Shown piece after piece: positions 6,525 to 60,879 of a stretch of 64,000 nucleotides of DNA. Below the pieces are notes generated by a model. It worked only from the letters and a program-made list of their open reading frames with translations, searched no databases and was not told the origin of the DNA. Source of the DNA: Prorocentrum cordatum (taxonomy: Eukaryota > Sar > Dinophyceae > Prorocentrales > Prorocentraceae); the NCBI GenBank assembly GCA_963575745.1, contig CAUYUJ010000891.1:1360993-1424992 (forward strand), read 5' to 3'. The position numbers and the translations under genes are program-made. Position 1 is the first letter of the stretch. Every line of letters starts with the position of its first letter.

Positions 6525-6584
6525 GGGTTTAGGGTTTAGGACTTAGGGCTTAGGGTTTAGGGCTTAGGGTTTGGTTTAGGGCTT
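6525..6584 (+). repeat. Interstitial telomere-type tract (TTTAGGG)
   Basis: About 60 bp of TTTAGGG with CTTAGGG and ACTTAGGG variants, some eight units. TTTAGGG is the plant-type telomere repeat, also reported for dinoflagellates. Sequence continues for more than 57 kb on one side and 6.5 kb on the other, so this is internal. A satellite array begins about 60 bp further on. Confidence 0.85.
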
Positions 6585-7915: not shown

Positions 7916-7934
7916 GCCTGGGCTGTGGGTATGA

Positions 7935-28232: not shown

Positions 28233-28483
28233 GACTCGACAGTGAGCTGGGCGTTGCATGTGGGTGGGAACGAGCGTGCATCCGCGGCTGCTTGGCTCAA
28301 AGCGGCCGGCCGCCCAGATCTGACTACACCTCAGCGCGAGGTGTACCATTTGCCATCGATACCAAAACTGCTTGAGATGACTCGCCCCCTACTACTAAGA
28401 CTATCGCTACTACGGTACAACAGAGCGGGAGCTGGGCTTCGCATAGAGCGAAGCTGCTGGTTGGGCCTCCCAACCCCGTTCAA
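28233..28483 (+). repeat. 5' long terminal repeat
   Basis: About 250 bp, matching 40989-41239 with some 17 substitutions and no length change. It includes the short hairpin ACCTCAGCGCGAGGT and, near its end, GGCTTCGCATAGAGCGAAGC, a diverged form of a perfect hairpin kept in the 3' copy. The exact terminus is uncertain: similarity starts at GACTC before AGTGAGC and fades after GTTCAA. Confidence 0.85.
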
Positions 28484-28504: not shown

Positions 28505-28672
28505 ATGGTGGTCAGTTCTAGCTCTATTCCTCACTATCCACGACACTATATGGTGGATTACTGACGTCGTGGAACATCAGGGTGCAGTGGGTTTGCGCGG
28601 AGGAATGTATATAACTACGCAGCATAGCAAGGACACTTGCAGTGACACTTCTGCCCACGCGGAGGCGTTCAC

Positions 28673-29029
28673 TTGCGTCCTACATCCCTGCGCTACTACA
28701 CTCCTGAAGTCCACCCTCCTACTCCAATTGGAAACATATTGGAATACATACTGCATGGAAACATGCGATACGACATTGTGCCGTCTCCACCCCCACGCAG
28801 GCTTACGACCACATACTGCAAACCCCAACCGCCTACATCCGACTACGACCTGCGAGGCCATTGGATTGGTATTATCATATTTGGGCTCACGTGGGCCGCT
28901 ATCGGGTGCGCGGTAGGATACATATGCGTGGGGGAGACGACAAAAGAACGACCGGCCCCCATTGGGACCCGTCCGGTCAAGTACCTTTCCGCGAAGTCGT
29001 CCGCGAGGTACATGCCTGGATCAACATGA
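28673..29029 (+). CDS. ORF between 5' LTR and gag, one hydrophobic segment
   Basis: About 118 codons open from a TTG (no ATG at the start). The C-terminal half has HWIGIIIFGLTWAAIGCAVG, long enough for one membrane helix, followed by a basic tail. I do not recognise it. It may be leader sequence that happens to be open, or a small element-encoded protein. It lies in the 620-bp stretch between the PBS-like site and gag. Confidence 0.25.
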   Translation: MRPTSLRYYTPEVHPPTPIGNILEYILHGNMRYDIVPSPPPRRLTTTYCKPQPPTSDYDLRGHWIGIIIFGLTWAAIGCAVGYICVGETTKERPAPIGTRPVKYLSAKSSARYMPGST

Positions 29030-29106
29030 CCACAGGCAACATGACGCCCTCCCAATAAGCTGAAGCCTTGCAGCGAGGCTTGTGAGGCCTCGCACGGACC
29101 ATAGCC

Positions 29107-30081
29107 ATGAGAGTTCCCCCAGCAGTTATCCATTTCGGTGTTAGCATAGGTGGCCGCCATACCGACGGTGTCACCTACATCATGTTCTTCGTAAGTACGA
29201 AGTTCAAGAATCTAGAAGAGGAGCGCCAACTCAACTCCGGTACAGCTCTCATTGACTTCCGAGTCCATGTGGGAGAACGGATCGACCAGACTTTGGCACG
29301 CTTCGAGATAGCCCGCTATGATGCTGAAACGGCAGGCTTTAACATCCCCAACTTCCCAATTCTAGCAGTCATTGTATTCAGAGCCCTTGGAGTGGGGACA
29401 TCGCGTGCACAGCAACTCCTGCAGCCACTAAACCACCACATGCCGAGGGACAAGCAACAGTTTGACTCTCTACTTGAACGCATGAGGTCATATGCACACA
29501 TTGCTGAGAGAACCCCTGGCAATATTGGTGGTATTTTCAGTCACGGTCACCGAACCGAGACCTTCCACGTTGAGGCAAACGCAGGGCAACCTGCTGATAA
29601 CGTCTGAAATGACGATCCGCAACCAACTGAGACCAGTACACTACTGGCTCAAAATGGTGGACCGGCTTCGGGGTCGCAAGACTCCCGGGCCAGGTTCCGG
29701 GGGCCGCCCGACGCGGCGTCCCCTACACAAGCCGCAATCCGAATGGGCTCCGCGGGGCAACCTGCTGAGTCCGACTTCGACTCCGGTACTGACACCGACA
29801 CGTCTTCGGACCAGGAGGCGACTGCCCTTGACTACTCCGATATGCCTACGTACCTTACGGAAGAGCAACAGGCGCGATGGTTATTGTTAGGATACCAGAA
29901 ACATTAACGCAGGTGGAGGCGATTTATGAAGAAGCCAGTTCGCAAAGCACGGCGCATCGTCCGACGGGCATTCAAGGGGAAAGGCAAGGGTCGAGGTAAG
30001 GGTAAAGGTAAGCGGCGGCGATTGCATGGCAGGGGCGTGTTAGCATTCCTTCCTAGCATCCCTCACCGGGCCATCACATGA
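29107..30081 (+). pseudogene. Gag-like capsid and basic region
   Basis: Starts at an ATG and runs in one frame to a TGA at 30079-30081 with only two internal stops (TGA 29605-29607, TAA 29905-29907). The first 167 codons contain a helical capsid-like segment (ERIDQTLARFEIARYDAETA, LAVIVFRALGVG, LLQPLNHHMPRDKQQFDSLL) of the kind found in Gag of dinoflagellate retroelements. The middle is acidic (SDFDSGTDTDTSSDQEA). The end is strongly basic (KKPVRKARRIVRRAFKGKGK), typical for nucleic-acid binding. Two hairpin motifs (29581, 29752) lie in phase, encoding AGQPA. Confidence 0.7.
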
Positions 30082-30133
30082 AGATATATTCCCAGGCGCA
30101 GGCAGGAACTGTAAGCTTGCATTAGGAAAAGGT

Positions 30134-31348
30134 AAGTGACGCCGGGGAAACCCGAAGGATGCCAACGGTAAAACTATGGAGGGCGACATATGCCACAGCA
30201 CAAAGCACTTTTGCCGCGACTGCCCTCAGGGCGAAGGGAGAGGCAGAGGTCCGTCGATACATGTGGCTCAAACTGATTCGGATATACAGCACGTTGACTG
30301 GGAGTCGCTTTTGGCCGACCCTGCCGATAGCTCAGTTGCAGTTGTTAACTTCATGGCTGCCAGACATTTGAGCGCCAGCGTGTCCCTCGAGAAGTACGCC
30401 GACGGGCTGTTCGAGGAGGTATTCACTGGCCACAGCGATATTGATCCGGCAGGCTGGCTGGGCATACCCATCGCGAGGCAACCTGCTGATATTGAATGCG
30501 TCGAGAACTTCCGCGCGCCCGCCGAAGGAGATGGCGAAATGGCGGGGGCGCCCGCGGATTCAGAAGCCACTGCTCCTGCAACAGAGGAGGACATACGGTT
30601 GATGCTGCGTCTTCGGGTTATTGGCAACCCGACAAACATCGAATTGAGCGATGACGACCCTTCGCGGGGAAGCCCGCGAGATGTTAGCGACCTGTCTGAG
30701 CGCATTCAGCATGGGCTCGGCCACAACGAAGGATTTCAATATGCATTCGTAGCTTCTGACCGCCCCATGAGCGGCCAGGAGCGATCGGCAAGCCGCCAGT
30801 CCTGGAGACGCAAGTATCGCGCCGACGACGATGACGAAGAATGGAAGATGACGCTCGTCTGGCACGTCGCGGTCGGGCCCGCGGCGGCTCGCCCGACCGC
30901 GCGCGCGCGCTCCAACGGCGCTCGATGTAGCGGCCCTCAGCGCCCTCTTCTTCCTGGCGCGGGGGGGCCAAAGACCCCCCCCCCATGGAGGGTCAGTAGA
31001 CCTGGCGCTCCCCCGAGGAAAGAGCGCCCGCGGGGACGCCCGCCTCAAGGGGGACAACCTCACGAAGAGCATCCAGAAGACGAAGTGCAGCGCCTTGTTG
31101 GCTACTCGGATGCTGGATTGGCTCGCCAGCACATAGACCCAGATGCAGCGCAACAGCGGTTGGGCAACGATTGGACTGAGCGCCAGATTCGCCGCGGGCA
31201 TTCTCTTCGCAAGGTTGGTCGACCAAAAAAACGTTATAAAGCAGGCAAGGTCATTCGCTCAAATAGGACAGGGGCTGCCAAAACACAAGAAGCCCCGATG
31301 AGGCGCGACCTCGACAGGGCCATCGTCGATGGGGCGGAAATTTTATAG
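30134..31348 (+). pseudogene. Zinc-knuckle segment and long linker
   Basis: A frame shifted against gag reads GNPKDANGKTMEGDICHSTK then HFCRDCPQ. This is a CCHC knuckle with spacing C-x2-C-x4-H-x4-C in which the first Cys is replaced by Gly (GDIC), so zinc binding is probably lost. It continues open to 31348 through a low-complexity linker; 30880-31060 is a GC-rich insertion coding Ala/Arg/Pro. Hairpin motifs at 30473 and 30542 are in phase. Confidence 0.55.
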
Positions 31349-31577
31349 AGGCGTGGTTTGCGCATGCTTCGAGCATGCCGACCACGGGCTCGGCCGCCCC
31401 ATGAGGCGCCCATCAAGGGGCCCCAACTTCCGCAAGGCACCGCGGGCTGGTCGCACGGTGATGGTCGGGGCGACTGTGCCGATCCAAATGCAACACAATA
31501 CAACGAGCAGTTGACGGAGGACGACTACGAGCAAGCTACAGCTCAAGAGATATCCCAATCTATTAAGCGAGGGATGC

Positions 31578-33250
31578 ATTTTTCACCTGTTCACCATTGA
31601 AAGATATTCAAACGCGATTACAATGCGGGGGAACTTGCTTCGCCCAAACCAGAAGAATACGACCAACAAGGAGATGGAGAAGCTGAAGATATGGCTGAAG
31701 CGGTAGACCCCACGGCAGCAGCTCTTGCAGGGCACGCCTCGGATTACTCCGACGCCCTCTCCACTGTCACGGACGTCACTTACGATGCGGGCGCCCCTAT
31801 TGGTCCGAGGTACATCGCCACTGAAGACATGGATCTTTCCCCAGAAAGAAGGATCGCTTACCGCGCTGGATCTGTAAGTTGGGTAAAGACTAGTATTGAA
31901 CAAAAGTTTAGCGCTTCTAAATATAACCGGTCCATCAGGGGAAAGGCCATTATCGGGGATATGGCATTCAGAAAGCCTGATGGCGTGGACCTTAACCTTG
32001 GCAGAGAGCCCGTGCGACATGGGCCATGGACACCCGTAGGGGCAACGCCGAAATCGCCTCCTCCCAAGCCGAAGACAGATCCGCCTGTTAATATTTCTCC
32101 ATCTTCGGATTCGTCGAGTCAGTCTAAGTCGCTCGGACCTGATCAGCTCAGACCACCGCCTATACAGAAGAAGAGGAAAAGCCCAGATGACCCCAATCCT
32201 GGAGATAGCAAGCAACAACGACCTGAGGGGCAACCTACTGATCGACGTCGATCCAGAGGACAGCAGCTGCATTTCAAGGCGCCAGCACTCCTACTCCGAA
32301 GGGCCCTGTACCACGTCGCGGCCCTACTCCTGGCCGGACACACTGGACTGGCTGGACGCCGACGCTGGAGGGATCATCCAAGCATGCTTCTTCATCACGG
32401 CGCGGTGCCAATAAAAAGGCCATTGGAAACTACATTGAAGGCATCAGGGGCAGCTCCCAAAGACAAGAAGTGCGAGCACTACAACATCAGCGAGAAGAAA
32501 CGACAGAATTTCGATATCAGTACTCCGCCGAGGACCTCTCGAACGCCCAGAGGATCTGCAGGCGCCGCCACCTCGTCATCGGCGGGCGCCCGTGCACCCG
32601 CGGCATCGGCAGCAGCTCAGAGCTCTGGGGGCAAACTGCTCTTACTTTGGAAATGCCCGTCGAATGCCGACAGCATTGGGGCTGCATACGCACTATCAGG
32701 CGCACAAAGATCAAACCAGCATATCACCCCTATAATGATGACGGGTCTGATCGATACATTGCGGCGGAATGCGACGTCCAGGACGCCGCCGTCATTGCCG
32801 GCAAGGACGCCCACGCGCGCCAGGTTATACGCGACATCTTGCGCAGACGCCCGGCGCCCACGCATCTGTCCGAGAAGATCGACTTGATGGGGATCTTGAA
32901 AGCAGACAGAGCTGTTGGTCCAAATTTGACCCATCAGAAGCAGCGCTGCTGCTCAGAATGGATTACGACTGCTACGCGTCACAAACCATTCCACAACCAC
33001 CATCTCTCTGATGGGTATCTGCGAGCAGTACCGTCTTTCGACGAATTCGATGGATGGGCGGAGCTCTCAGAGCTGCTCAACCAGCGGCCGCCTGTTTCCA
33101 CCCCAAACACTTGGAGACTGTCCAGCGGTATCTCAGCAACCGCCATTGGGCATATCAAGCATTGACTGTGCTGAACTCGATTGGCATGGTCGATAACGCT
33201 GGGATGCAGAAAGCAAGCTCCAGACCAATAAGTGCAAGTTCGTTTCTGAG
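31578..33250 (+). pseudogene. Unassigned retroelement polyprotein part
   Basis: The same frame as the knuckle segment is open again with normal composition (for example DYNAGELASPKPEEYDQQ, AEAVDPTAAALAGHASDY, RSIRGKAIIGDMAFRKPDG). Later frames (32470-33160 and 33054-33317) contain helical stretches. No domain recognised. Hairpin motifs at 31625 and 32225 are in phase. Frames change at least twice, so this is decayed. Confidence 0.45.
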
Positions 33251-33690
33251 ATGTACGAGACATACTTCATACGACGCAGCAGTCCTGGAATTAAATGCCC
33301 TGAATTATTGTATATGAGGAAACCAGATTTGATTATTCCAGTTGCACCTTGTTGTTTCATTCATGATACCCAATGGGAAAATATCCCTCATATACTTCGC
33401 ATAGGGCTGTCATGCCCCACCGACGACACCATCAAGATAGCACGCAGAGAGTTTGTTCACGCTTGCCAAGATCTACCGGGTGACAGCAGAATCCAATCCG
33501 GCCTGCGCGTCGACTCCGAAGTATTGATTATGGTTAGTCTGAAGAATTCGCTTCGTGATAATATGGCTAGTTGACGCTCAGAAAATGACAATGTCGGCAG
33601 GCCGGAACGGCAGAATTTCCCCGACTCGCATCGTCAAGCTTATAGGCATTCTGCCCAAGGGTAAGTGCAGGTACAAACGCGTGGGACATG
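33251..33690 (+). pseudogene. RNA 2'-phosphotransferase (Tpt1/KptA)-like remnant
   Basis: Tpt1/KptA enzymes remove the splice-junction 2'-phosphate from RNA using NAD+. Here the frame shows, in family order: an H-x-T element (FIHDTQWENI), W-x-x-I-x3-L-x-x-GL, a REFVHACQDLPGD segment (family x-H-I-H-F-A), SGLRVDSEVLIMV (family SG-x-R-x4-VLI-x-V) and a D-x-x-x-A position. A TGA follows at 33572, then RSEND in the same frame (family S-x-N), then in another frame MSAGRNGRISPTRIVKLIG (family L-T-x-G-x-x-G-x-I-P). The order and spacing make the match convincing to me, though I have run no search. One stop and one frameshift disrupt it. Confidence 0.6.
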
Positions 33691-34911
33691 CATGGATCAA
33701 TCCCTTGTACCTGTGGGACCGCTCAGAAATATCAGAGAAATTATATTTCCACCGACGATATGTACGAATTTCACAATGATGCATCATCGTTGAAAGATCG
33801 GCTTCTTCCAAAAACATACAATTTGAAGTGTCTCGAACCGACGCCCATCCAGGAGGTCGAGTTCTCTACGGTATTTTTGCTGCAAGAAGTGTATCATGCG
33901 GGGGCACCTGCAGGGGGATCTGACGGATCATTGATCCAGGCCCAGAGTGCGGACATGACTGGTATGACATCGAGTGGAATTACTTCCACCGACATGCTGT
34001 GCGCCAACGATCCGTGGCGCACCCAGACGCAGCAGCTGCCAGCACCTGCAGGGCAACCTGCGTCGCTTGCACCTATGCGCAGGGTCACAGCTCCATGTTG
34101 GACTCCACAGAGCGCTGGGAGCACCAATAGCATACAGACAAGGCTGGAAAGCATCCGGATGGACCCGCGGCTCTACCAGGCTTTGCAGGTGACATCGCCG
34201 TTCGCATCGCCGCGTCCACATGCGGGGCAACCTGCTTTCCCTGACCACCACGCTGCACCGAGGACCGAGAGCTTGGTTGGTCAGCAAGAGTGGATGCACC
34301 GGCAAATGCGCGAAGCCGCACAGAGCATGCGCAGGGACGGCATCGACCTCCCGAGCGCTAGCTGGACGCCGCCTTGGGAGGATGTCCCGGGCCCAAATCC
34401 ATCACCGGACAACCCCAAGAGGTACGGATACATGCCAGCATTTTTCAGTCATCCGACATACGATCCGACAGCTGCAGAGCGCCCTACAGCACCACCGATG
34501 GACTTCCCATTATATCCTGACTACCATGCTCAGGGGACGGGTAACCCTCGCGCGGGAACGCAGCCGGAAAGCCCGTATGCACGGGCGACAGCCGACGACT
34601 TCTATCAGTCTCAGTTGACACGCGGCTCTGGTCACACGTCTGGTGTGCCGGGCCAGATTCCTCATTATGGATATCTGGCTACCCCTATGGATTCAGATGT
34701 GACTCAACAGGCCCCCGCCCTGGTAGCGCCATCATCCATGGGGGGGTTGCGCCCAGAGATTCTGGCCATTCACGAGGCGCAGCGGGCCAATTTCTCAATG
34801 CAGCTGGCCCGCAAGCGTCGCAATCATGAGCGCCGGGCGAACAGGGTGCGCATTCAACCCAGCAGCACTTGCAGCCATGCAGCCACCGTCGGCCCCACCG
34901 ATTCAGCATGA
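33688..34911 (+). CDS. Pro/Gln-rich polyprotein region
   Basis: About 400 codons without stop, low in hydrophobic core, rich in Pro, Gln, Ala, Thr and Met. Hairpin motifs at 33898, 34048 and 34222 are all in phase (AGAPA, AGQPA). It ends in a basic stretch (QLARKRRNHERRANRVR) and overlaps the RING frame by 86 bp, implying a frameshift at that junction. Function unknown; probably a disordered linker. Confidence 0.5.
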   Translation: MHGSIPCTCGTAQKYQRNYISTDDMYEFHNDASSLKDRLLPKTYNLKCLEPTPIQEVEFSTVFLLQEVYHAGAPAGGSDGSLIQAQSADMTGMTSSGITSTDMLCANDPWRTQTQQLPAPAGQPASLAPMRRVTAPCWTPQSAGSTNSIQTRLESIRMDPRLYQALQVTSPFASPRPHAGQPAFPDHHAAPRTESLVGQQEWMHRQMREAAQSMRRDGIDLPSASWTPPWEDVPGPNPSPDNPKRYGYMPAFFSHPTYDPTAAERPTAPPMDFPLYPDYHAQGTGNPRAGTQPESPYARATADDFYQSQLTRGSGHTSGVPGQIPHYGYLATPMDSDVTQQAPALVAPSSMGGLRPEILAIHEAQRANFSMQLARKRRNHERRANRVRIQPSSTCSHAATVGPTDSA

Positions 34912-35296
34912 GGTTGGTGAAACAACTCTGGAGCGCCAGACGCGTATCAGGCCATCGGCAACACCGCCAGTCATCAGCGACGGTGAATTTCACAGGTGTG
35001 CCATATGCCTGGGCCACTTCATGCATCGCGACAAGGTCTGGAGGCTTCAGTGTGGCCACATATTCCACGCTCAGTGCTGGGACCGAGCTGCACGCGCCCA
35101 TGCGGACAGACAGTTGGCTGGCACGATGGAAGGTGCTGCAATTGAGGCACCCTGCGCTATTTGCAGGGGCGCTGGTCTAATCACAGCTCAGTTTCATTAT
35201 GCCCTTGCTGGAGATCAGGATGCAGCAAATCGTCATGGAGAAATACTCCGAGGAGCTAACCAAGTCAGGGACCTTCGCGAAGAGCTTACATTATGA
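34826..35296 (+). CDS. RING-H2 finger protein region in retroelement
   Basis: From ATG 34826 the frame is intact for 156 codons. Residues about 58-112 form a RING-H2: CAIC, 14 residues, CGH, two residues, HAQC (C-x-H-x2-H-x2-C), a linker of about 24, then CAIC. All eight ligands (C3H2C3) are present. RING-H2 domains usually recruit E2 enzymes for ubiquitin transfer. The N-terminal 50 residues are Pro-rich linker; the C-terminal part is helical and charged. The intact zinc ligands stand out in an otherwise decayed element. Confidence 0.8.
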   Translation: MSAGRTGCAFNPAALAAMQPPSAPPIQHEVGETTLERQTRIRPSATPPVISDGEFHRCAICLGHFMHRDKVWRLQCGHIFHAQCWDRAARAHADRQLAGTMEGAAIEAPCAICRGAGLITAQFHYALAGDQDAANRHGEILRGANQVRDLREELTL

Positions 35297-35751
35297 ATAC
35301 CACAGCAGTCCTTACAACAACACCTGCGGGGCAAGCAGCTTCATCAGCCAATGTGGTGCAGGCGACGGAAGTTACCGCGCATGCTCTGGATACGCCTATG
35401 CCATTATTAGCAGAAACAGCCAACAATGCAGGGGCACCTGCTACGACTGCACCTGCCGCGTTGCCGGCCAACGACACGTGGCTGACCCGTATGGAGAGAG
35501 CCACCGAGAGGAGCGCGCAGCGGCTTCAATCTCCACATACCTACAGGCCATATGGGCGAGACATCCGCCCGCGCAGCCAGCGCAGGACGGAGAGCCCGGT
35601 GAGCGCGCGCAGCGGCATCAGTGAGATATCCGAGCGTGACATGCTACACACTGTGTTGATGGTGAACACAGGCGGCCAGAGGCATGCGTGCCGACGAGGA
35701 TACATTCATGAACATGCCGCTCGCATCTGCACCACACACGCACATGCATGA
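35293..35751 (+). CDS. Ala/Thr-rich linker region
   Basis: An open frame overlapping the end of the RING frame. It is Ala/Thr-rich with in-phase hairpin motifs at 35326 (diverged) and 35428, then Arg-rich (YGRDIRPRSQRRTESPVSAR). No domain recognised. It bridges RING and protease. Confidence 0.4.
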   Translation: MNTTAVLTTTPAGQAASSANVVQATEVTAHALDTPMPLLAETANNAGAPATTAPAALPANDTWLTRMERATERSAQRLQSPHTYRPYGRDIRPRSQRRTESPVSARSGISEISERDMLHTVLMVNTGGQRHACRRGYIHEHAARICTTHAHA

Positions 35752-36502
35752 CGAGTCTCCTACGGCCTGGGCTTTCGAGAAGAACCCCATTACGGAGGAG
35801 GAGGCCCGCGTATACATGAACGTCGTCACGCTTCTGACAAGGAAGGATTGGGTGTTGGAGCTGAGGCGCCGCAAGGGTACGCATGGCACGACACTGTCTG
35901 AGGTGCCAGGAATATTCGGAGAACGCCATGAACTGGCCCTGGCCGCTCACAGCGGGACCATTGTGGATGGAATGCTGACAATCATTCTGGAAATCGGCAG
36001 CAACATCAACATCAGTGGACTAAAAACGGCACGGACATTTGAACGGGCATCCCGTTCCCACAAACACGACATCATGAGGCTGAACTTGACAAAGAGGCTC
36101 TACGTGTCGGGAGTGGGACATGGCGCCGCTGTAGGCTTGCATTGCAAAATTGCGCGAGAGGAAGAAGGATATCCGGCGGGGGCACCTGCTGTGCCGAGAC
36201 TTGATGCCCACTCAGCTAACGTGGCTGAGTGTTCAGGAGAACATATCCTTGTTATCCTGGGTCTGAGGAGCATGTCTAGCATGAAGACTCTCCTGGTCCT
36301 GCAGCAGGGGCACGAGAAGATGATCATCCCTGGCTCTGATATGCACAAGCTCCTACTTGGGAAGGGTGCCAGAGCATTCGATTTGATGGAAACGCCTCCT
36401 GGGCACCTGGCGCTCAAGATCGACGAGTACGGGGCCGCAACTGAGGACAAAAGGTCGATGTCGTTTACTATTGCAGCCGCTGCTCGTCAAAGAGGCAGCT
36501 GA
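35684..36502 (+). pseudogene. Retropepsin-like domain with altered active site
   Basis: The frame contains GTIVDGMLTIILEIGSNINI, where the family has L-x-D-T/S-G-S, then a GHGAAVG flap-like segment, VAECSGEHILVILGLRSMSS (second hydrophobic strand, family I-LG-x-x) and a GHLALKID end. The expected catalytic Asp is replaced by Glu and T/S by Ile (LEIGS), so proteolytic activity is unlikely in this copy. A hairpin motif at 36176 is in phase. The frame is otherwise intact for 272 codons. Confidence 0.6.
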
Positions 36503-37091
36503 CACAGAGCCAGCCGCGGGGGCACCTGCTACGCGCGATGCCCATACATGTATGATGTCACAGGATACCAAGGGCATCAGCTTCTCCATCAAAGAGGATA
36601 CGTTCGCTTCTGCGATCCAGCCTTTGGCGAATAACACCTCGAAGACTTGGCATCGCAGGAATGCGTCCTGCGGGGCTGTTCCCACACCGGCCGACCAGGA
36701 CTTCGCCATGCGAAGCTTGCAGGCAAAAGTCTTTCAGGCCATTTACGAGGAGGGCACTAAGTGGATGCCGCCCGACGCGAAGGCAGGGACACATGCGGAA
36801 AGGGGGTGATGCCGCTGAGAAGTTTGATATTTTTACTTCGAGCAGCGGCTCTGCAGCGCAGCATGGCACGGGCATTTGGACGCCTCCACCGCTTGAAAAT
36901 GAGTGACGGGGGCAGGCGCGTGCCACGGCCACCCGCGCTTGCTCCGACAGGCCGAACACGCAGGTTCTGCCATCTAGCGCGGGGGAACTTGCATTATTTT
37001 CCCAGGCGCCGGCTGCGCGCGCCAGGGAAATTGGCAAGCCAGGCTGCGCGGCTGCCAAGGGCAGCAGTGGACCCGGCTGCGCGGCCGCTGC
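36471..37091 (+). CDS. Helical spacer after protease
   Basis: A frame with in-phase hairpin motif (36516) reads FSIKEDTFASAIQPLANNTS and later QDFAMRSLQAKVFQAIYEEG, likely helical, to 36809. A GC-rich Ala/Arg region with a diverged hairpin motif at 36979 follows. Not assigned. Confidence 0.35.
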
Positions 37092-37706
37092 AGCGAATGA
37101 ACGCCCATCGCATCAGTATCATTCTCGTGCACTTGTCATTGAAGACACACGGACAGCTTGCGCTGAACTCCGAGCTCGTGGTTACATGTGTGACCGCATT
37201 ACACATGCAGAGGTTATGACTTCCATTGGTACACAGTATTTGGGTGCTCTACTTTCGGGAGTTATCAATTGTTGTGGGTGGCAACGCCCGCTGACTGGCA
37301 CGTTAGGATGCCTGGAAAGCGGGCAGGGCCACATCATCAACGCATCCACAATTTGATGACTAAGGCTCGGGCTCTACGCATGTCTACTGTACTAGTGGGA
37401 CCACCAGGTTACTTATGGAAACAGGGGCCCATGCGAGATGCCATTGAAGATCTCGACTTGCAGGCCATGCGTATGCGATGCTGCCATTTCGGTCTGAAAT
37501 ACGACCGTTCAAGTAAGTTGCCTAGCGGATCAGATCTGCAAGTGGCAACTACTTACACGCGCATTCCAAGCATTTTGTGGAGATGTACGTATCAACCTGC
37601 AGGGAAACCTGCCCAACTTGCGAAGCATGAATTGGACTGGCATGGACAAGGCGCTCAGAAGGCAGAATGGTGCCACAAAACATTGGCTATCATGACCGCG
37701 AGATGA
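37092..37706 (+). pseudogene. Methyltransferase-like segment A
   Basis: Before a frameshift near 37262 the reading is ALVIEDTRTACAELRARGYM then GTQYLGALLSGV; after it LLWVATPADWHVRMPGKRAG, MSTVLVGPPGYLWKQ and HFGLKY, ending with LWRCTYQ and HELDWHGQGAQKAEW. The layout of the second part (hydrophobic strand, then P-rich turn, later a strand, W and a C/H-rich tail) resembles the region with the S-P-P-C step in methyltransferase-like domains of dinoflagellate retroelements, but the catalytic Cys is not visible (TPAD). Hairpin motif 37599 is in phase. Assignment to the cytosine-methyltransferase class is tentative. Confidence 0.4.
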
Positions 37707-38127
37707 TCAGACGTATCTACACAAAACAAAGAGAAACCACACGAGCGCTGTGCACCTTAGCATTCACACACGAGTGGATAATGGAGCTCGAACTTACGCT
37801 CAGTCTCAGAAGAATGGCCGTGAATGGGACCATGTCGTAAGACGAGTAACGATGAACTTGGGCGATAATCACATTGACAATACATCAAGATCCAGGACCA
37901 ACCTATCGGGTACAATGACAATGCGCCGTTACCGAATGGTGCAAAAACATCCCTACTCGGTTATACTGGGTGCCGCCAGATACGGCTCTCATCGGACAGG
38001 AGGATCCACGTCCACGCCCATGGCGAGTGGCGTTCGTCGATGACGATCCTCTCCCCCCCCTTCGATTGAGCGCGGCCGCCGCGCACTCCCCTCTACCCCC
38101 GAATTTCCGACGCTAAGTTCACCTGAC

Positions 38128-38403
38128 ATTGAACAACGGACAGCACTACCGACCGATGCCCGAATCAAACAAAAGAACAACTGAAAGCCGACACAGAAGC
38201 GGGCATCAAGCCGCGCAAGATACCCAAGGTAGTCGAAGAAGGCAACGACGACTGCGGGGATGACTTTAAGGGTCTCGGATGTAGCGCGCGCTACACCGAC
38301 GCCCCCCTTGACTCCGACACGGAAAGTGATGTTGAAGAGGAAACTTTCATCGCATCACTTGCGGGGCCATTTGCTAAATCCTACGCCGATGTATTCTCAT
38401 AAT
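38128..38403 (+). CDS. Basic then acidic linker
   Basis: The frame reads ARIKQKEQLKADTEAGIKPR, KVVEEGNDDCGDDFKGLG and DSDTESDVEEETF before a TAA at 38401. Charged and probably disordered. The 37707-38127 stretch before it has only short frames. Confidence 0.4.
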
Positions 38404-38440
38404 CCCAACGTTATGCTCTGGACGACACAACAAGGTTGAC

Positions 38441-39075
38441 ATGTTGAAGTTGCGTGGAGGAAGTGGAGGCATATCGCAGCTAGCATTCAGCCGGGGTTTG
38501 TCTTCTGGGGGACATTTAAACAAACGCTCCTATGTTGATCTTGGAAACAAGGATGTCCAGACTGCAGTGATGCACTACCTAGACGCTTGCTTCGTCAACG
38601 TTGTCATACTACAACCCAAACTGCAGAACGACTGGACTACCTTCATATTTCCATTCCCAAGTCAACTTAGGTACTTGGCATGAACACCACAAAGAAGATC
38701 TTCCACATGTGAAGTTCTGTGGTAAGGTTACCATACGCCAGAACGATCTTCGACGGCTTTATTTACGAGAACAACCAGTGGGTACTTGGGTGGACCAGAT
38801 ACCACCATGTACCACATTGGCCAAAGTCAAGGGCACTTGCAAGGTGAATACAGAGCAATGTACTACCGGCATACGTGGTCCCCATGGGGTATCGATACGA
38901 AAGCCGACAGATCATGGCCAACCCCCGCCTTCTACTACACCTTTACGACGTGCTGGGCATCATCAACATGCGTCGGTATGTAACAAAGAACTGTCCATGG
39001 TTGCACATTATCCTTCAATGCTGCAGTCTAGTTTTGTCGACGCAGTTCAGATCGCGCACGATCTTTTCCTGGTAA
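38441..39075 (+). pseudogene. Methyltransferase-like segment B
   Basis: Frame 1 (38441-38640) has VDMLKLRGGSGGISQLAFSR, whose L-x-G-G-x-G-G-x-S is a class-I methyltransferase motif I-like loop, then YVDLGNKDVQTAVMHYL. After a frameshift near 38640 the reading continues RTTGLPSYFHSQVNLGTW, HHKEDLPHVKFCGKV and LREQPVGTWVDQIPP, then a further break. This is the better preserved of the two methyltransferase-like parts. Capture of cytosine methyltransferases by dinoflagellate retrotransposons has been reported (de Mendoza and co-workers); whether this domain is of that kind needs a profile search. Confidence 0.5.
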
Positions 39076-39078
39076 ACC

Positions 39079-40055
39079 GTGATCCTTTTCATGGTCACCC
39101 TTATTCATCCACCGTGCGCGAGCAGCCACGACATTACAGTAGGCAGACATGCTGCTGAACCTGCTGCAGGGCAACTTGCCTCGAGCGGAGCTGGGAGTTC
39201 GGATGGCCACATCCGACTGCCACAGGTCAGAGTCAGACGTGGCCGACAGCAAGGAGGAGATCCACCTCCACCGCCACCAGCGGGCAACCCTGCTGCACGA
39301 CCACGACTTCCAGACTGGTCAAGGTTCGACGTACAAATCAGTCTTCAAAACTTACGAAGCAGTGACCCAAGCGTGGTAACACGCGAGCTGCGGAATCTAC
39401 GCTTGCGCTGGTTCCATGCGAAAGAGCCATCTTAACCAAGATAGGTCTGGACACTGTCAGACTCAACCTCATGAAAGGTGTCTGCGACACATGTCGGGAG
39501 CGCAGGGTTTGGGACAAGCCTGGTCATACCGTTATGCCATCTACTGCACTGGCTGGCAGGTTCAACGAAGAAGTTGAATGTGACCTTATATTCTACAAAC
39601 AAGGACATCAGAGATCTCATATCATCGATCGTTGTATTCGATATGCTACTGGAATGGAGATACCAGGCAAGACGATGACCAGTATCCTGGTTGCATACCA
39701 TCAGTGATGGATGCAGTTTGGACATGCAAATGTTCTCTACTCCGATGGAGAGGGGGCCCTCAACAACGACACTGCGAAAGCAGTCCTTCAGGCAAGGGGC
39801 ACTGAACCAAGGATACGTGCGCGTGGACAACACGCTACGACGATCGAAGCCAGAAATGACATATTGCGCCATCTACTTCATGTCATGGAACCTGAACTCA
39901 ACAGGTTAGACATACCTCTCGTGTTCACACGACTACTGCATGAGGCCTTGATTGCCGCCAACGCGTTGACCTTGTATGGCGAGGTGTCTTCATGCAACGC
40001 CCTGTTTGGACGGCAACCGGCAAGGCACCCTGACTTGCGTATCCTGGATCACTAA
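39079..40055 (+). pseudogene. Retroelement integrase (D,D-E)
   Basis: 39079-39435 holds a Pro/Ala linker with two in-phase hairpin motifs (39166, 39280) and the start of the integrase N-terminus (LRNLRLRWFHAKEPS). After a frameshift near 39450 the main frame reads CDTCRER (Cys pair of the HHCC site) and then the catalytic core: D in EVECDLIFY, D in YSDGEGALNND and E in HATTIEARNDILR, so all three acidic residues of the D,D-E triad are present. The end has EALIAANALTLY and NALFGRQPA, as in copia-type cores. A single in-frame TGA (39705-39707) splits the core between the two Asp residues. Confidence 0.75.
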
Positions 40056-40091
40056 CAGCCGACGGAAACGCCGGATCATTCTCGTGAAGAG

Positions 40092-40772
40092 ATGATACGC
40101 AAAGTACGCATTGAAGCTATCACACAGGCCACTGCAGCAGCCAAGGCCAATCGTACATTACGCACTAAGACAACTATCGCCGTTCAGCATTACTACGATG
40201 GAGGAGATTTTGTTGATTACCATCGCCCCACAACCACGAAGGGCGACTGGGGAGGCTGGAATGGCCCATCCCCAGTCGTAAGAAACGATCCCGAGAGGGG
40301 TCAAGTCATCATTCGAGTGGGAAACCGCGACGTTCAGGCACAATACGGCGATGCACGACATTCGCTCTATATTGAAGCTTTGCTCGCCGGAGAAATTGGC
40401 TCCTGCAGCGCTGCATTACGGACAGCGTTGACGTTCGTGGCCAGTTTACCTGCGGGGAGACCTGCTATGACATTCGGCTATGTCCCGACCAAGAAGGGGA
40501 TGCTTCATATGACAAGTGCAAGCCGACGATCTCCTAAGGTACATCTGGCTTTTCCATACATCATCAGAAATTCTTTCCGCATTGAGAACGTAGTTTCGGT
40601 CAGGCTAGCCAAGGGCATCCATGAGCTACCTCCGGTTGCTTACGCTGACAGGTGCACATTGGTCCACTACGATAAAGGTGTGAATCCAGGATTCCACGAT
40701 TATGAAGCAGAAGGCACCGCCCTTAACATTCACGATATGATTGAATTAGCACATTCAATCTGTCAAATTTGA
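40092..40772 (+). CDS. Integrase C-terminal domain and tail
   Basis: In frame with the integrase core and separated by a short gap with stop. It reads DFVDYHRPTTTKGDWGGWNG, PSPVVRNDPERGQVIIRVG and VQAQYGDARHSLYI, the W-x-GP-x-V...G-x-V-x-VR pattern of a small beta-barrel DNA-binding domain that follows integrase cores. A further conserved-looking tail runs to TGA at 40770. Hairpin motif 40452 is in phase (AGRPA). In fuller relatives reverse transcriptase would be expected after this; here it is absent. Confidence 0.6.
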   Translation: MIRKVRIEAITQATAAAKANRTLRTKTTIAVQHYYDGGDFVDYHRPTTTKGDWGGWNGPSPVVRNDPERGQVIIRVGNRDVQAQYGDARHSLYIEALLAGEIGSCSAALRTALTFVASLPAGRPAMTFGYVPTKKGMLHMTSASRRSPKVHLAFPYIIRNSFRIENVVSVRLAKGIHELPPVAYADRCTLVHYDKGVNPGFHDYEAEGTALNIHDMIELAHSICQI

Positions 40773-40988
40773 CTTAAAGCGTCGTGCTCCCTATCGGGCT
40801 GGCCAGACATCTCGTTCTGCAGCCGTTTTTCGGAGCATTCGTATGCACAGTATAGTGCAGGCAAGGCAACTTGCCTGCGGGGCCACCTTCCTTACAGCTC
40901 CGCCCTTTTGCTGTCCTTTTTGTAAATAGTCGCTGCTGTACCTGCTGTATAGCGGCGACAGATTCACGCCTCGTCTCCCTTCCCCCCC
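40773..40988 (+). other. 3' non-coding leader to LTR, with hairpin
   Basis: Contains a perfect hairpin at 40857-40878 with nine-base arms GCAGGCAAG and CTTGCCTGC. The stretch just before the 3' repeat is pyrimidine-rich (CTCCCTTCCCCCCCGA), so there is no normal polypurine tract on this strand. Confidence 0.6.
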
Positions 40989-41239
40989 GACTCTAAAGTG
41001 AGCTGGGCGTTGCATGTGAGTGGGAACGAGCGTGCATCCGCGGCTGCTTGGCTCAAAGCGGTCGGCCGCCCAGATCTAACTACACCTCAGCGCGAGGTGT
41101 ACCACTTGCCATCGATACCAAAACTACTTGGGATGGCTCGACCCCTACTACTGGGACTATCGCTATTACGGTACAACACAGCGGGAGCTAGGCTTCGCCT
41201 AAGGCGAAGCTGCTGGTTGGGCCTCCAAACCTTTTTCAA
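40989..41239 (+). repeat. 3' long terminal repeat
   Basis: Partner of 28233-28483. It keeps a perfect eight-base-arm hairpin GCTTCGCC-TAA-GGCGAAGC near 41193 that has decayed in the 5' copy, and the ACCTCAGCGCGAGGT hairpin. Confidence 0.85.
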
Positions 41240-45417: not shown

Positions 45418-45814
45418 GCCAAAACCAAAATGATATTACATGAATTGCTTCAGCGGTGTAGGCTCCCATGCGAGCATCCAGTTGTTCCTTGGGTGGGTGA
45501 AAGTGGGGGTCGGCCGCAGGGTCCCGGCAATGATGTCTTTATGGGCCATGAATGGGCGATGCATCCTCGATTGCTGTGGTCGGCGGGGGAACTAATGGAA
45601 GCCCCCCGCTTGCACCCATGCGCGATACTTGAAAGGAAAGGAAGCAAGGGGGCGGGGGGCTCGGGAAAGGCGACGAAGGCAACGTGCGCTGAGGGCGCAG
45701 AAAGAAAAGGCTGGAACACACGAAAGCGGTCATGTGAGTGTCGAAGTCTGCCCAGCCAATCTGACATGCGGAACAAAACGCCTCAGTGTTGGGGATCTTG
45801 AAGGCCAGGGCAAA
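45418..45814 (+). other. Possible retrocopy body downstream of SL relict
   Basis: An ATG 13 bases after the relict opens a frame of about 125 codons with low-complexity Lys/Gly parts and no domain. I do not call it a gene. If the relict marks a retrocopy, its coding part has decayed or is non-coding. Confidence 0.3.
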
Positions 45815-46042
45815 ATGTGAATTCACATTGTGGGGGAAAGCAACATGCGAATTCACATTTTGGGAAAAAGGAAAATGTGAATTCACATTTTGGAACAAAG
45901 GAAAATGTGAATTCACATTTTGGAATTTTGTGTAGGATTCTTTATGAAAGGGGCCAGAATGTGAATTCACATTTGGGGAAAAAGGAAACTGTGAATTTAC
46001 ATTTTGGGAAAAAGGAAAATGTGAATTCACATTTTGGGAGAA
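45815..46042. repeat. Tandem array of AAATGTGAATTCACATTT palindromes
   Basis: Seven copies of an 18-22 bp palindrome centred on GAATTC, spaced about 30 bp (one gap of about 55), separated by TTGGGAAAAAGGAAA-like spacers. Copies near 45880, 45902 and 46018 are perfect; others have one or two changes, one of which breaks the centre (GAATTT). Confidence 0.9.
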
Positions 46043-48582
46043 AAGTGGGCCCCAATCCAAATCTGTCTTGGGGGTCGAGAAGTCATCGTTTGGGAACATA
46101 CACGATCATCAATCGCACAATCAAGACATACTTGCACTCCACTTCGCTGCCCCACGCGCAATATGCATGAACCCCCGCACGCATGAACGATAATGGATGG
46201 ACGGCGCGTGTGCCCGCGCGGGCAACGCGCGGGCACGAACGACTGGCCCTCAATGACCGCCAACATTGGATGCCAATCGTACCCGTTCACATACATGAAC
46301 GATACATTGAGCATACATGGGCCATTCAGCCCCCATTGAAGACACCCTGTTGCAGACCCCCTCTTTCACCCTCCAAGTTGTTGATGTTTTCTCGCGCAAG
46401 TCCCACGCCAAGGTTGGCATTCCATCTTCCAAGCCCAGCGCCCGCCATTGCTGCAGCGCTGGCCTCCGTAACTTGCACACGTGCATGCTGCTCTTTGTCT
46501 TCGTGCAGTGGTCTCAGTACACCATCGCGACGCATGTCTACACTCGTGTTGCCAAGCCTCCTCTTCGACAACGTCTCCTGGACATCGGCGCCCAGCAGTA
46601 CCTCATTTCACCACGATTGCAGGCATGGAATCAGAAAGCAGCCGAAGTAGCAGAAGTGATGGCGGACGCAGACAACATTCACCACATCAACGACGGAGAG
46701 CAACGGACACTAGTCAAAAAAGAGTCGCAGCGGAGGAGAGGGTCGAACACGCAGTGACCGCAAAGATCGGCATCGTGGCAGGCGCCCTGACCAGCAGAAC
46801 GCGATGGGCATTCAGAACATCGGGCTGACTGTCAGGAACGAGACAAACACTTTCATCGTAAACAAGCAGGTCGGGACCGCGGGCCCAGTAGAAGAACTGG
46901 ACCTTCATCTGGCAGAACGGACCACCTTTTCAACAATGAGGTCCATGGCGAGACCCAAATGCTCACCGTCCCGCCGAACATGCTGGGGCTAGTGGTGGCC
47001 TCGCCGTTGCAGCAGCTCCTCGGCAATATGTTGTCTCCCTTCGTGGAGTCCAGTGGCTTGAAGCTGCAGCTACGTCCCCTTCCCAACCTGGGCCAAGTGG
47101 TCCTGCTGTCCCTGCCAAAGCTCATGCCGACGTGGAAGGCATGCCCATGCCCCCCTGAGCTCGCTCCGCACCCTCCTGCTGATCTACAATTTGGCTGCAC
47201 TGCGGGAAGCAAGAACAGATTGCACCAGCGACGGCGCAGCTCACTGACACAGCGAACCTCCTCATAAGGGAGCAGCAGCAACAGCTGGCTTTCAACTGCC
47301 AGGTGCAGGAACCCCGCCAGCACTGCAGGCAGAACATTGCGCACCTTGAGCCGCATGGCCGCAGCATACATGATTTGCAAGAACGAGCACACAAAGCCGA
47401 AGCTGATCAACAACGAACGCGGGCACACATCGCATCAATGGACGCTACCCTGTCTATGGCAGAGGCACCAACACCCTTTGACTTACAACGGATGGCAGAC
47501 GGGAACGAGCGACAGACCCCACCAGGTTCAGCAATGGAGCGCCCCGTGCGATCGTATTGCAGTCGGCGTGTGTTGTTCGGGATCAGTGGATTACTGTTTA
47601 TGGCGCTCTTCCTGGCCAAGACGGCTAAACGGTGACACCCCACAGCTCATAGTATACTTACAAGTGTTGGGTGGAACAAGTTGTTGGATGGCCTTATCGA
47701 AAGCACTTCGTACCACAGCAGGGCCACAAGACACAGCTGGAGCATAAACACCCGTCTTCGTTGACACAAACAAGGGCCCCGAATAAGGATGATTGGAATG
47801 TGAAACGAAGCGTTTGCAGAGCATCACCCAAGAGAAACATGTTGGATACACGATTGAAGCCCAATGACCGAGAGGTGCCATCATTATTGGCACTTTTTCT
47901 TTTTCGTGGTGGCCGAAATCCAAGGTGCAGAGGAGCCATCGAGTCTCCATTGGGGTGGAGCAGAACTTACGAAGTTTCCCATGCACAAGACTTTTTGGCG
48001 GAGGCGTTTAGCAAGGCATTCGCGAGGTGGTCGTCGTGGAGCGCAGCGCCTTCGGGTACATGCGACATGCGGTATGGTCGCCAGCTGGAACGCTGGAAGC
48101 CCCGTGCGCTACAGACCGTTCAGGCGCGAAGCCCAAATCCAACAAGCTCGCGACGCTCATTAGAAGAAAAGCTGACATTTGGATCCAAGGATGCCGCTGG
48201 AGCCAAGACATGCACGAGGACACGGTCGCATCCTACCAGTGCCCACACAAGGTGTTCTGCATCCACGCCCCGCGTATTTCTGGCGGCATTGCCGTCCACA
48301 TTCCGCAAGATCAGCGACGTGAGGGTAATCTAGAAATTCCATGTTCACTTGAAAAGTTCAATCATTGGCGCATCGCTTTGCCCCCGATTACGAACCAGAA
48401 GGGCGACGTCACATACCGTGGCCATGTTCGCTGCGCACACCGTCGGGATCGATGCAGGGCGCCAGAGTTCGATTCAGAATCGCTGGGGGAACTTGGTACG
48501 CTGGAATCGTGAGGACTCGCCGCGTGGGGTCATTTTCGCAGCTGGTGGCTGGTGGTTTCAACGCACGCGCTGGGATCCTGGC
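46043..48582. other. No assignable gene; possible decayed retroelement frames
   Basis: Composition is even and several 100-codon frames look protein-like, for example 47303-47635 with a probable coiled coil (LQERAHKAEADQQRTRAHIA) ending in a hydrophobic segment, and 48027-48512. Frames change every few hundred bases. I recognise no reverse transcriptase, endonuclease or capsid. It may be a decayed non-LTR element, but that is a guess. Confidence 0.3.
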
Positions 48583-56745: not shown

Positions 56746-57640
56746 CTAGGGCGGGGCGGCGGCGACATGGCGGCCAGAGCGCCAGACGGGCCCAGACGAC
56801 AGGTGGCGACGAAGCGTCGGCATGGCCGCCAGGCCGACCGTCAGGCCCAGTGTCTTAAGTGTAACCATTGTTTGGAGAATGAATGTGTGTGTGTCTATGT
56901 ATATATATATATATATAATAAAAATTTAAATAAAAAACAAAAAACAAAAAACTGGGGGGCAGGCCCGGTGCCCACAAACAGCTGCCCCGATCCCCCATGG
57001 GAGGACGGGGCGGCCGGGGAGATCCAAAATAGTCCAGGAGGGCCTCCAGAGGTTCCCCAGCCGGCCCAAGCGGGCCCCGAGTCGCCGAAAGACCGCTCCA
57101 GGACGCCCAAGATAGGCCCAGGACGGCCCGAGAAGACCCCCAAGGCACTCCACGACGCTTCAAGAAGACGCCTCTCCCGAGCGCTTCAAGAGACCACAAT
57201 CGTCAATTTTGCGAGGGTTTTGGAGAGATGTTGGCCTGCCAGCCTTTTCGGCTGTCCGACGTCCCAGGCCGGCTCCATAGGCCCCCAAGAGCGCCCCAAG
57301 ACGGCCCATGAGGGCCCCCAGACGGCCCCAGAGGCGCCCAAGAGAGCCCCAAGACGGCCCCAAGATGCGCCCAAAAGGGGGACCACGACTCCAAAAGTCG
57401 ACCCTCCCGCTTGAAGAGTGTCCCAGGAGGCCCCAAGGAGCCCCCCAGAGGCCCCAGGAGGCCCCCGAGAGGAACCCATGAGACCCAAACAAAGCCTCAA
57501 GAGGCCACAAAACAGCCCCGAGGAGGCCCCACAACGGTCCCAAAACGGCTACCGAGAAGCTGCGAAATTGCCTTCACGACGTCCCCGACAGGCCAACCAC
57601 GAGATCCAAACCAACACCCATGAGGCCTCTGACCCACCAC
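56746..57640. repeat. Long dispersed repeat D, copy 1
   Basis: The unique part 56746-56890 is followed by a TA tract (56897-56920), then from 56955 a repeat block starting CTGGGGGGCAGGCCCGG and ending near ACCCATGAGGCCTCTGACCC (57640). A second copy lies at 60880-61540 in the same orientation, also directly after a TA tract. The inside is CCCAAGA-type low complexity. Confidence 0.85.
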
Positions 57641-57674
57641 CTAGGGCACCCGCCGCCCGCCCGCCGTCCGCGTA

Positions 57675-57955
57675 GCACGCACCACTCTGTACTCAACAGC
57701 TTCAGTCTCCAAGACAACACCCTGTAGTCAACAGCCCCGTCTTCAAGGCAACACCCTGTACTCAACAAGCTCCCGCTGCAAGAGAGCACCCTTAAGGAAT
57801 TCATTCAAATCCCGACCCGCCCGCCCGCCCGCCACCCGCCCGCCCGCCCGGCGCCCGCCCGGCCGCTCGCCCGCCTTCCGCGTAGCACGCGCCACCCTGT
57901 ACTCAACAGCCTCCGCCTCCAAGACAACACCTAGCATTCAACAGCCCCCAGGGCT
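57675..57955. repeat. CAACACCCTGTACTCAACAG tandem units and (CCGC)n
   Basis: Units of about 40-45 bp at 57683-57780, then CGCCCGCCCGCC at 57815-57885, then the same units and the same CCGCGTAGCACGC leader again at 57886-57945. So a block of about 220 bp is partly duplicated. Confidence 0.8.
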
Positions 57956-60760: not shown

Positions 60761-60769
60761 CTATATATA

Positions 60770-60832
60770 AAAATGTGTATATATATGTACATACATACAT
60801 TCATATACATATATACATATATACAAATATAC

Positions 60833-60873
<41 letters not shown>
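60770..60873. repeat. (TA)n / TATACA microsatellite
   Basis: TATATACATA changing to pure TA at 60840-60871, directly upstream of repeat D copy 2. Confidence 0.95.
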
Positions 60874-60876
<3 letters not shown>

Positions 60877-60879
60877 CCC

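Follow-up and report, generated by a model that had tools for sequence, protein, structure and literature searches.

The 64,000-nucleotide stretch analysed here, called the window throughout, comes from the dinoflagellate Prorocentrum cordatum (contig CAUYUJ010000891.1 of assembly GCA_963575745.1, positions 1,360,993 to 1,424,992 of the forward strand) and has a G+C content of 59.6%. It contains a decayed retrotransposon bounded by long terminal repeats (LTRs), along which a short inverted motif recurs on the plus strand. As RNA, this motif is a 14-nt hairpin, GC-NN-G (GNNA tetraloop) C-N'N'-GC, and its stem in the window's own family of elements is GCRGG/CCUGC. The features of the element, and the hairpin sites along it, are collected in Table 1. 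The questions considered here are whether the motif is maintained as an RNA structure, and what for.

The sequence TGGTAGCGGAGC sits within a few bases 3' of the 5' LTR, and we take it to resemble a primer-binding site for initiator-Met tRNA. No target duplication was recognised around the window copy itself, but a related copy (L013/L014), with LTRs identical at 220/254 positions, had GAGGT on both sides, a 5-bp target-site duplication with ends set by eye. Stretches of the window's family (L009-L028) were 70-92% identical to the window over matches of at least 100 nt. Other relatives were recognised by protein though beyond the reach of blastn (L001, L031, L032, L040 and L045). One diverged element, C78, was represented by L031 and L049-L052 and had open frames of up to 999 codons, that is, all of L049. 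The window copy is interrupted by stops at 29605, 39705 and 40053, and its reading frame changes along the element. A Pfam search of these decayed frames returned only the RING and KptA domains above noise and found no reverse transcriptase, nor was one found in L014 or L032. In the relatives, L031 Gag showed a visible C-x2-C-x4-H-x4-C pattern and a zf-CCHC match (E 0.0015, 19.0 bits, slightly below the Pfam cut-off of 20.8), and protein P0025 possessed a basic tract. For P0004 the rve match was weak, short of the cut-off (E 0.047). RVT_2 lies after the integrase-like region of L051 in C78 (E 6.5e-7; 29.6 bits, cut-off 31.6; match truncated where the stretch ends), an arrangement that is the Ty1/copia order as predicted from the domain matches. 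Taken together, LTRs with a target duplication, an integrase before RVT_2 and a CCHC Gag place the predicted host element among the Ty1/copia-like LTR retrotransposons. The Tpt1/KptA domain was also found in the diverged relatives L049 (E 3.7e-17) and L040 (E 4.4e-15). We found no paper joining Tpt1 or 2'-phosphotransferase with a retrotransposon in the one open-access library searched.

Relatives of the element were not found in databases of viral contigs or genome contigs, and an Rfam scan of the window gave no match. Homologous proteins were present in metagenomes and in a EukProt data set named Pyramimonas sp. The proteins from this green alga (P0001, P0002, P0008, P0009, P0012, P0014-P0020 and P0023-P0030) are of the same element kind, with 40-89% protein identity, and may reflect contamination, prey or transfer between algae.

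Table 1. Features of the element in the window. Hairpins are written as 5' arm, loop and 3' arm; "strict" followed by a fraction gives the related stretches with a strict hairpin (rule in the text) at that site.
Feature	Position	Strand	Remarks
5' LTR	28233..28483	+	229/251 identical to 3' copy; 251-nt direct repeats
Hairpin GCAAG-GACA-CTTGC	28627..28640	+	presumed 5' leader; strict 4/7
Hairpin GCATG-GAAA-CATGC	28753..28766	+	presumed 5' leader; strict 4/7
Gag-like reading frame	29086..29904	+	stop at 29605; hairpins 29581 and 29752 (AGQPA); zinc knuckle in relative L031
Hairpin GCAGG-GCAA-CCTGC	29581..29594	+	strict 6/7
Hairpin GCGGG-GCAA-CCTGC	29752..29765	+	strict 2/7
Hairpin, decayed in window (4/5 pairs)	30473..30486	+	strict 3/9
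Hairpin GCGGG-GGCG-CCCGC	30542..30555	+	AGAPA; strict 4/10
Hairpin GCGGG-GAAG-CCCGC	30664..30677	+	codon phase 2, RGSP, not AGxPA in the open frame; GNNA-looped in 5/10
Hairpin GCGGG-GGAA-CTTGC	31625..31638	+	AGELA; strict 3/8
Decayed hairpin (4/5 pairs)	32225..32238	+	strict 6/10
Decayed RNA 2'-phosphotransferase domain (Tpt1/KptA, PF01885)	33344..33592	+	E 3.8e-6
Hairpin GCGGG-GGCA-CCTGC	33898..33911	+	AGAPA; strict 7/11; AGTPA in P0001
Hairpin GCAGG-GCAA-CCTGC	34048..34061	+	AGQPA; strict 7/12; AGQPA in P0001
Hairpin GCGGG-GCAA-CCTGC	34222..34235	+	AGQPA; strict 10/12; hairpin in other phase (QGNL) at matching place of C78
47 nt absent in window (34849)	34834..34865	+	two hairpin units ~27 nt apart, some decayed, in 12/12 aligned stretches
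RING finger	34994..35167	+	domain search; RING finger in relatives too
Decayed hairpin (3/5 pairs)	35326..35339	+	strict 8/13
Hairpin GCAGG-GGCA-CCTGC	35428..35441	+	AGAPA; strict 10/13
Hairpin GCGGG-GGCA-CCTGC	36176..36189	+	AGAPA; strict 9/13; 7-aa gap in C78
Hairpin GCGGG-GGCA-CCTGC	36516..36529	+	one unit in window; two, 24 nt apart, in 6/12 related stretches
Decayed hairpin (4/5 pairs)	36783..36796	+	strict 7/10
Hairpin GCGGG-GGAA-CTTGC	36979..36992	+	AGELA; strict 6/12
Hairpin GCAGG-GAAA-CCTGC	37599..37612	+	AGKPA; strict 9/10; overlapped by 5-aa gap in C78
Hairpin GCGGG-GCCA-TTTGC	38361..38374	+	G-U pairing; strict 6/10
One-base-decayed hairpin, stem type GCAAG/CTTGC	38827..38840	+	strict 3/10
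Hairpin GCAGG-GCAA-CTTGC	39166..39179	+	AGQLA; strict 8/10; ~5 aa absent in P0011 (by eye)
Related hairpin, loop CAAC, not GNNA	39280..39293	+	AGNPA; motif match and alignment
Decayed integrase-like region	39366..40769	+	stops at 39705 and 40053
Hairpin GCGTG-GTAA-CACGC	39371..39384	+	phase 1 (SVVTR); strict 8/11; compensated GCGCG/CGCGC in L025
Hairpin GCGGG-GAGA-CCTGC	40452..40465	+	AGRPA; strict 9/9; integrase site; place and phase common with C78
3' non-coding hairpin, 9-bp stem GCAGGCAAG-GCAA-CTTGCCTGC	40857..40878	+	GCAA loop
3' LTR	40989..41239	+	direct-repeat partner of 5' LTR

Scanning the window with GCRGGGNNACCTGCT and allowing at most two mismatches gave 20 plus-strand matches, spanning 29581-40877 and all within the Ty1/copia-like element. 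An extra minus-strand match at 39293 is the palindromic site 39280 counted from the other strand. The remaining window held one plus (58696) and one minus (22743) match. On the plus strand of the element, 21 hairpins had five pairs and a G-C-closed GNNA loop, compared with a mean of 1.0 and a maximum of 4 in 30 Markov control runs; the same class was represented once on its minus strand and three (+) and four (-) times in the other 51 kb. The reading of the sequence alone that preceded this analysis (the sequence-only reading) had described about 20 micro-hairpins in one retroelement and none outside it. The first statement is borne out by the counts, and the second is true of the window only; the genome has thousands of copies, in the sample mostly in related elements.

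Genome-wide, in the 4.13-Gb assembly, where repeat counts can be lower bounds, the motif was found at 8012 places against 449 for a reversed-pattern control, a 17.8-fold excess. The paired pattern GCTGGGNNACCAGC was enriched 5.6-fold (3665 vs 651 in the control) and the mispaired pattern GCTGGGNNACCYGC only 1.2-fold (3123 vs 2601). In a small sample, 98 of the first 100 motif places listed, with individual matches within clusters not verified singly, neither blastn nor tblastn linked 11/98 places to elements, where the control predicts about six such places. The sequence-only reading had named an equal density of the motif in unrelated sequence as the result that would undo it. This was tested, and no such equality was found.

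Related window-family copies align hairpin-like sequence at the sites of the window. A strict rule, GCNNGGNNACNNGC with complementary inner pairs, was used to score them, and 18 of the 203 hairpins so defined could not be mapped to window sites. Strict occupancy at the mapped sites ranged from 2/7 to 9/9 related stretches. L009-L028 and most of L029-L048 had been picked for carrying the canonical motif, so that the canonical count among them is biased. The C78 element was reached via one genome-wide motif place, and L031 has two canonical 14-mers in 4 kb.

Synonymous constraint was examined in 164 window-to-copy comparisons from 19 stretches, with data for 18 sites (39166 yielded none) and with the window copy's own decay entering every comparison. 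In the flanks, mismatch rates were 0.283 at third codon positions and approximately 0.16 at first and second positions pooled. Third positions were the more variable at all 18 sites, so the frame encoding AGxPA (Ala-Gly-x-Pro-Ala) is the coding frame there. Within the motif, the third positions (bases 3, 6, 9 and 12) mismatched at rates of only 0.09, 0.07, 0.12 and 0.15, while base 15, immediately beyond the hairpin, mismatched at 0.29, like third positions of the flanks. Constraint thus follows the 14-nt hairpin and not the five codons.

The base pairs themselves were censused in 205 instances at 20 sites, the window included. Pair 3-12, which is synonymous in the AGxPA phase, was G-U in 105, A-U in 71, G-C in 18 and A-C in a single instance, with 10 otherwise unpaired; pair 4-11 was G-U in 15 and A-C in three. 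Synonymous changes at pair 3-12 mostly kept pairing, a check that the sequence-only reading had proposed, and AGxPA written in non-pairing codons at the same sites, which it had set down as adverse to itself, was rare among these 205 same-genome instances. Within the window family, 220 of 239 observed arm combinations were paired; 5000 reshufflings of the arms averaged 176 and never exceeded 187. Non-canonical matches to GCNNGGNNACNNGC in this family had both inner pairs complementary in 51/70 plus-strand cases and 1/7 minus-strand cases. Thermodynamic folding of the decayed window gave a stem probability above 0.5 for 11 of 17 hairpins.

The diverged C78 element contained 38 matches to GCNNGGNNACNNGC, 36 of them with both inner pairs complementary and with 13 different stems. 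The loops were mostly GNRA (GAAA 25, GCAA 5, GAGA 3, GACA 2, GTAA 1), and the base after the hairpin was C in 31/36. No fully paired hairpin of this type was found on the C78 minus strand. Redealing the 3' arms produced on average 8.6 and at most 18 paired hairpins in 20000 shuffles, against the 36 observed. An alignment of 37 of the 38 matches (A7; one match at a stretch edge was left out) gave a covariation score of 0.520 vs 0.091 shuffled, and 39 two-sided changes vs 10.3 shuffled. Folding in windows of up to 134 nt gave a stem probability above 0.5 for 32/36 hairpins, compared with 37/155 other hairpins of 5 bp and 4 nt. In L040 there were 11 both-paired hairpins, with a 5' arm that was always GCGGG, a 3' arm of CCCGC in nine and CCTGC in two, and GNCA loops. 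Across the diverged families, non-canonical GCNNGGNNACNNGC matches were both-paired in 30/35 plus-strand and 2/3 minus-strand cases. Loop and stem preferences differ between element families.

The reading phase of the hairpin also differs. In the window family and in L040 it lies in codon phase 0 and is read AGxPA. Exceptions in the window, with phases determined by hand, are 30664, which is RGNP in GAAA-looped copies (codons read by hand), and 39371. The claim of the sequence-only reading that frame-legible copies always encode Ala-Gly-x-Pro-Ala is therefore correct for most of the window family and fails at these two sites, RGSP and SVVTR. In C78, each phase was taken from the longest open frame, with a minimum of 150 codons. 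Of the 33 coding hairpins, 25 were in phase 2, five in phase 0 and three in phase 1, and three more hairpins lay outside long frames; 19 of the 25 in phase 2 read xGNxP. At 34222 the window and C78 have hairpins at a matching place in different phases. As C78 hairpins are mostly read in another phase, AGxPA is not conserved across families, though it is dominant in the window family. Three window hairpins (28627, 28753 and 40861) precede the Gag frame or lie at the 3' end, and the last of these has the long non-coding stem already seen in the sequence-only reading.

The motif thus has covarying inner pairs, constraint that ends at the hairpin edge and no single reading phase. We put at roughly 95% the probability that it is under selection as a hairpin in the plus-strand RNA of the element, its outer pairs, closing pair and loop frame being fixed. 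The synonymous constraint, the pairing census and the covariation in C78 give strong support to the earlier suggestion that the RNA hairpin, and not the peptide alone, is what keeps the sequence conserved. Several observations weigh against this conclusion. The strict hairpin was present in only a minority of copies at some sites (2/7 at 29752, 3/9 at 30473), L032 had fewer sites (7/10 both-paired in 10 kb), and 6/17 window hairpins were not the favoured local fold. Bases 10 and 11 mismatched at 0.19 and 0.22, not below the flanking first and second positions, and the closing pair 5-10 showed no preference for G-U over A-C (6 vs 7). Two of the five measures on A7 were at shuffle level (pairs with two-sided change, 2 vs 2.0; pair types, 8 vs 8.1). 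The mispaired GCAGGGNNACCMGC was found at 5109 places genome-wide against 1703 in the control, a 3.0-fold excess that is above the prediction of a simple pairing model, although the listing mixes clustered repeats (for example C112 and C148) with places near or inside elements, unseparated. Finally, hairpins strongly favour one phase within a family (0 in the window family and L040, 2 in C78), which calls for an additional explanation at the level of protein or copying.

Other repeats were also observed. Among the GCAGGGNNACCMGC matches listed, several element copies had GCAGGGTTACCCGC on the other strand, at the copy or close by (C2:1090373, C225:1109807, C325:430151 and C336:1178117). Self-similar repeats lie beside the C78 element in L052 (oriented 1951-2828). 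The window has imperfect units of 10-11 nt, CCCAAGAGGCC being one type, in arrays (8148-8298 and 57280-61385), as well as eight copies of a 30-nt unit containing the palindrome AAAATGTGAATTCACATTTT (45810-46045), and a short TTTAGGG-like repeat (6525-6584) adjoining a 68/136-nt tandem array (6893-7918).

What binds or reads the hairpins can be addressed only with less certainty. The hairpin is kept at about 20-36 dispersed plus-strand places in a group of Ty1/copia-like retrotransposons, and because so many copies share one sequence-and-structure motif we infer a single putative RNA-binding protein that would bind each RNA at many sites. The element's own Gag would be the likeliest partner, coating, selecting and packaging genomic RNA through the hairpins. 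It is the leading candidate because of the zinc knuckle in L031 and the basic tract in P0025, because the signal is nearly confined to elements in the sample of motif places, and because families vary in the loops and stems that they prefer. Packaging is further supported by the spread of the hairpins along the element, including stretches outside long frames, and by the nature of the element, which is RNA-borne with LTRs, a zinc knuckle and RVT_2. New sites would arise through short duplications in frame, at places that can accommodate a small flexible peptide. We regard it as a little short of an even bet that the hairpins are dispersed sites for an element-encoded RNA-binding protein, probably Gag, that packages the genomic RNA. 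The fuller picture, in which the whole genomic RNA would be an array of some 20-36 GNNA/GNRA hairpins, acquired as short units in frame, preserved through covariation of their stems and acting as strict multi-site tags by which each element's own Gag selects and condenses its RNA, is held more tentatively still. The sequence-only reading had proposed RNA structures for packaging or translation; RNA structure is supported, packaging is the reading kept, as a conditional one, and translation passes to the alternative that follows.

A host RNA-binding protein might instead bind the hairpins, so that they would help to export the long element RNA from the nucleus, translate it or stabilise it, not to package it. 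The same evidence in cis, namely synonymous constraint, pairing in C78, the shuffles and covariation, would be expected of such a role, and sites are alike inside and outside long reading frames. However, no clear set of host transcripts carried the signal in the small sample of motif places described above, and family-specific loop and stem preferences fit a partner encoded by each family. We consider a host-protein role rather unlikely.

Alternatively, the structures could be read by enzymes of the element, through pausing or template switching of reverse transcriptase, or through RNA cut-and-repair involving the Tpt1/KptA-like 2'-phosphotransferase. The KptA/Tpt1 domain is present in the window and in two diverged elements, and dispersed hairpins could serve as strand-transfer points. 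Pausing, however, should not depend on conservation of a GNRA loop and of outer GC pairs, and KptA substrates are not, to our knowledge, hairpins; this alternative appears improbable.

Similarly small is the chance that the motif is of no use to the element, being a micro-palindrome that moves or duplicates itself, spreading in frame. Both shared sites and short in-frame units of approximately 15-24 nt occur among copies. C78 has gaps relative to the window of five residues at 37599 and seven at 36176, and P0011 apparently lacks five residues at 39166, as judged by eye. The 24-nt units vary in number, with a second unit at 36516 in 6/12 related stretches and three units, some decayed, at 32612 in 2/7 stretches, and blocks of 19-22 nt recur around some C78 hairpins. 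In the aligned parts, the integrase site at 40452 is common to the window and C78 in place and phase. A pure mobile repeat is nevertheless disfavoured by stem covariation with fixed outer pairs and loop, by synonymous-base constraint across orthologous sites, by the single orientation and by the few places outside elements in the examined sample. The idea of a mobile micro-repeat inserting in frame, raised in the sequence-only reading, thus retains the sites that differ by in-frame units, and loses to the conserved places and to a structure kept by covariation. Rickettsia palindromic elements, which are palindromic inserts of about 100-150 nt in reading frames, resemble the hairpins in lying in frame within coding sequence. 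They are bacterial and much longer than the 14-nt hairpins and units of ~15-24 nt found here, where stems also covary, and a long palindromic insert of the Rickettsia type was not found.

A protein-level explanation, in which AGxPA is a linker or protease-recognition peptide and the DNA likeness reflects shared descent or codon habit, is very improbable. Window sites in legible frames do read AGxPA-like residues, coding constraint in this frame is seen in the flanking sequence wherever there were data (18 sites), and AGxP-like residues persist at the integrase site of several diverged proteins. The distribution of phases in C78 refutes the peptide as sole cause, hairpins stand outside long frames in C78 and, in the window, ahead of the Gag frame as well as at the 3' end, and synonymous constraint stops at base 14. 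Linker peptides between polyprotein domains, also suggested from the sequence alone, are accordingly unsupported as the sole reason for the motif. That the hairpins are scars of spliced introners, with arms that are terminal repeats left after RNA-mediated intron loss, can practically be dismissed: P. cordatum introns are enriched in introner elements with inverted repeats, according to the part of PMC10666404 consulted, but the stems covary around a fixed 4-nt loop frame and no intron lay between the arms in copies among the alignments listed, which could show such separated arms where the hairpin scans, requiring a 4-nt loop, are blind to them.

Packaging through dispersed hairpins, as favoured here, has its closest analogy in RNA viruses, although membership of that class cannot be claimed from sequence alone. 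Viral dispersed packaging signals overlap coding sequence, and they have usually been argued from looser motifs. In the consulted part of PMC6281560, which includes the MS2 case of such a looser motif, the signals of MS2, picornaviruses and hepatitis B pregenomic RNA are scattered stem-loops with one recognition motif; they share aspects of a high-affinity motif and have known coat-protein binding. Many stem-loops with a shared motif through a genomic RNA are likewise found here. The hairpins of this algal LTR retrotransposon differ in being strict, highly repeated and covarying at the inner pairs. Retroviral packaging stem-loops mostly cluster near the 5' end. Those of MMTV (PMC8096270, consulted in part) are comparable as Gag-recognised structures in a reverse-transcribed RNA, the role of Gag being putative in our case. 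Unlike the retroviral 5' cluster, the hairpins described here occur in about 20-36 copies through the reading frames and beyond. The lambda boxB RNA, bound by the short basic N peptide, likewise has a 5-bp stem and a GNRA-like loop fold, but its loop is a pentaloop and it is present in one or few copies, whereas dozens of tetraloops occur here. In one open-access library we found nothing on the RNA secondary structure of dinoflagellate copia elements, and a search there for GNRA hairpins with retrotransposons and Gag gave only unrelated papers, as judged from titles and the starts of abstracts.

A motif that is strict, repeated dozens of times, covarying and family-specific makes the idea of dispersed packaging directly testable. 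The elements also show, in nature, how a repeated RNA structure can shape coding sequence; the structure is read as AGxPA in one family and mostly as xGNxP in another. In dinoflagellate genomes, the RNA structure offers a way to recognise element families.

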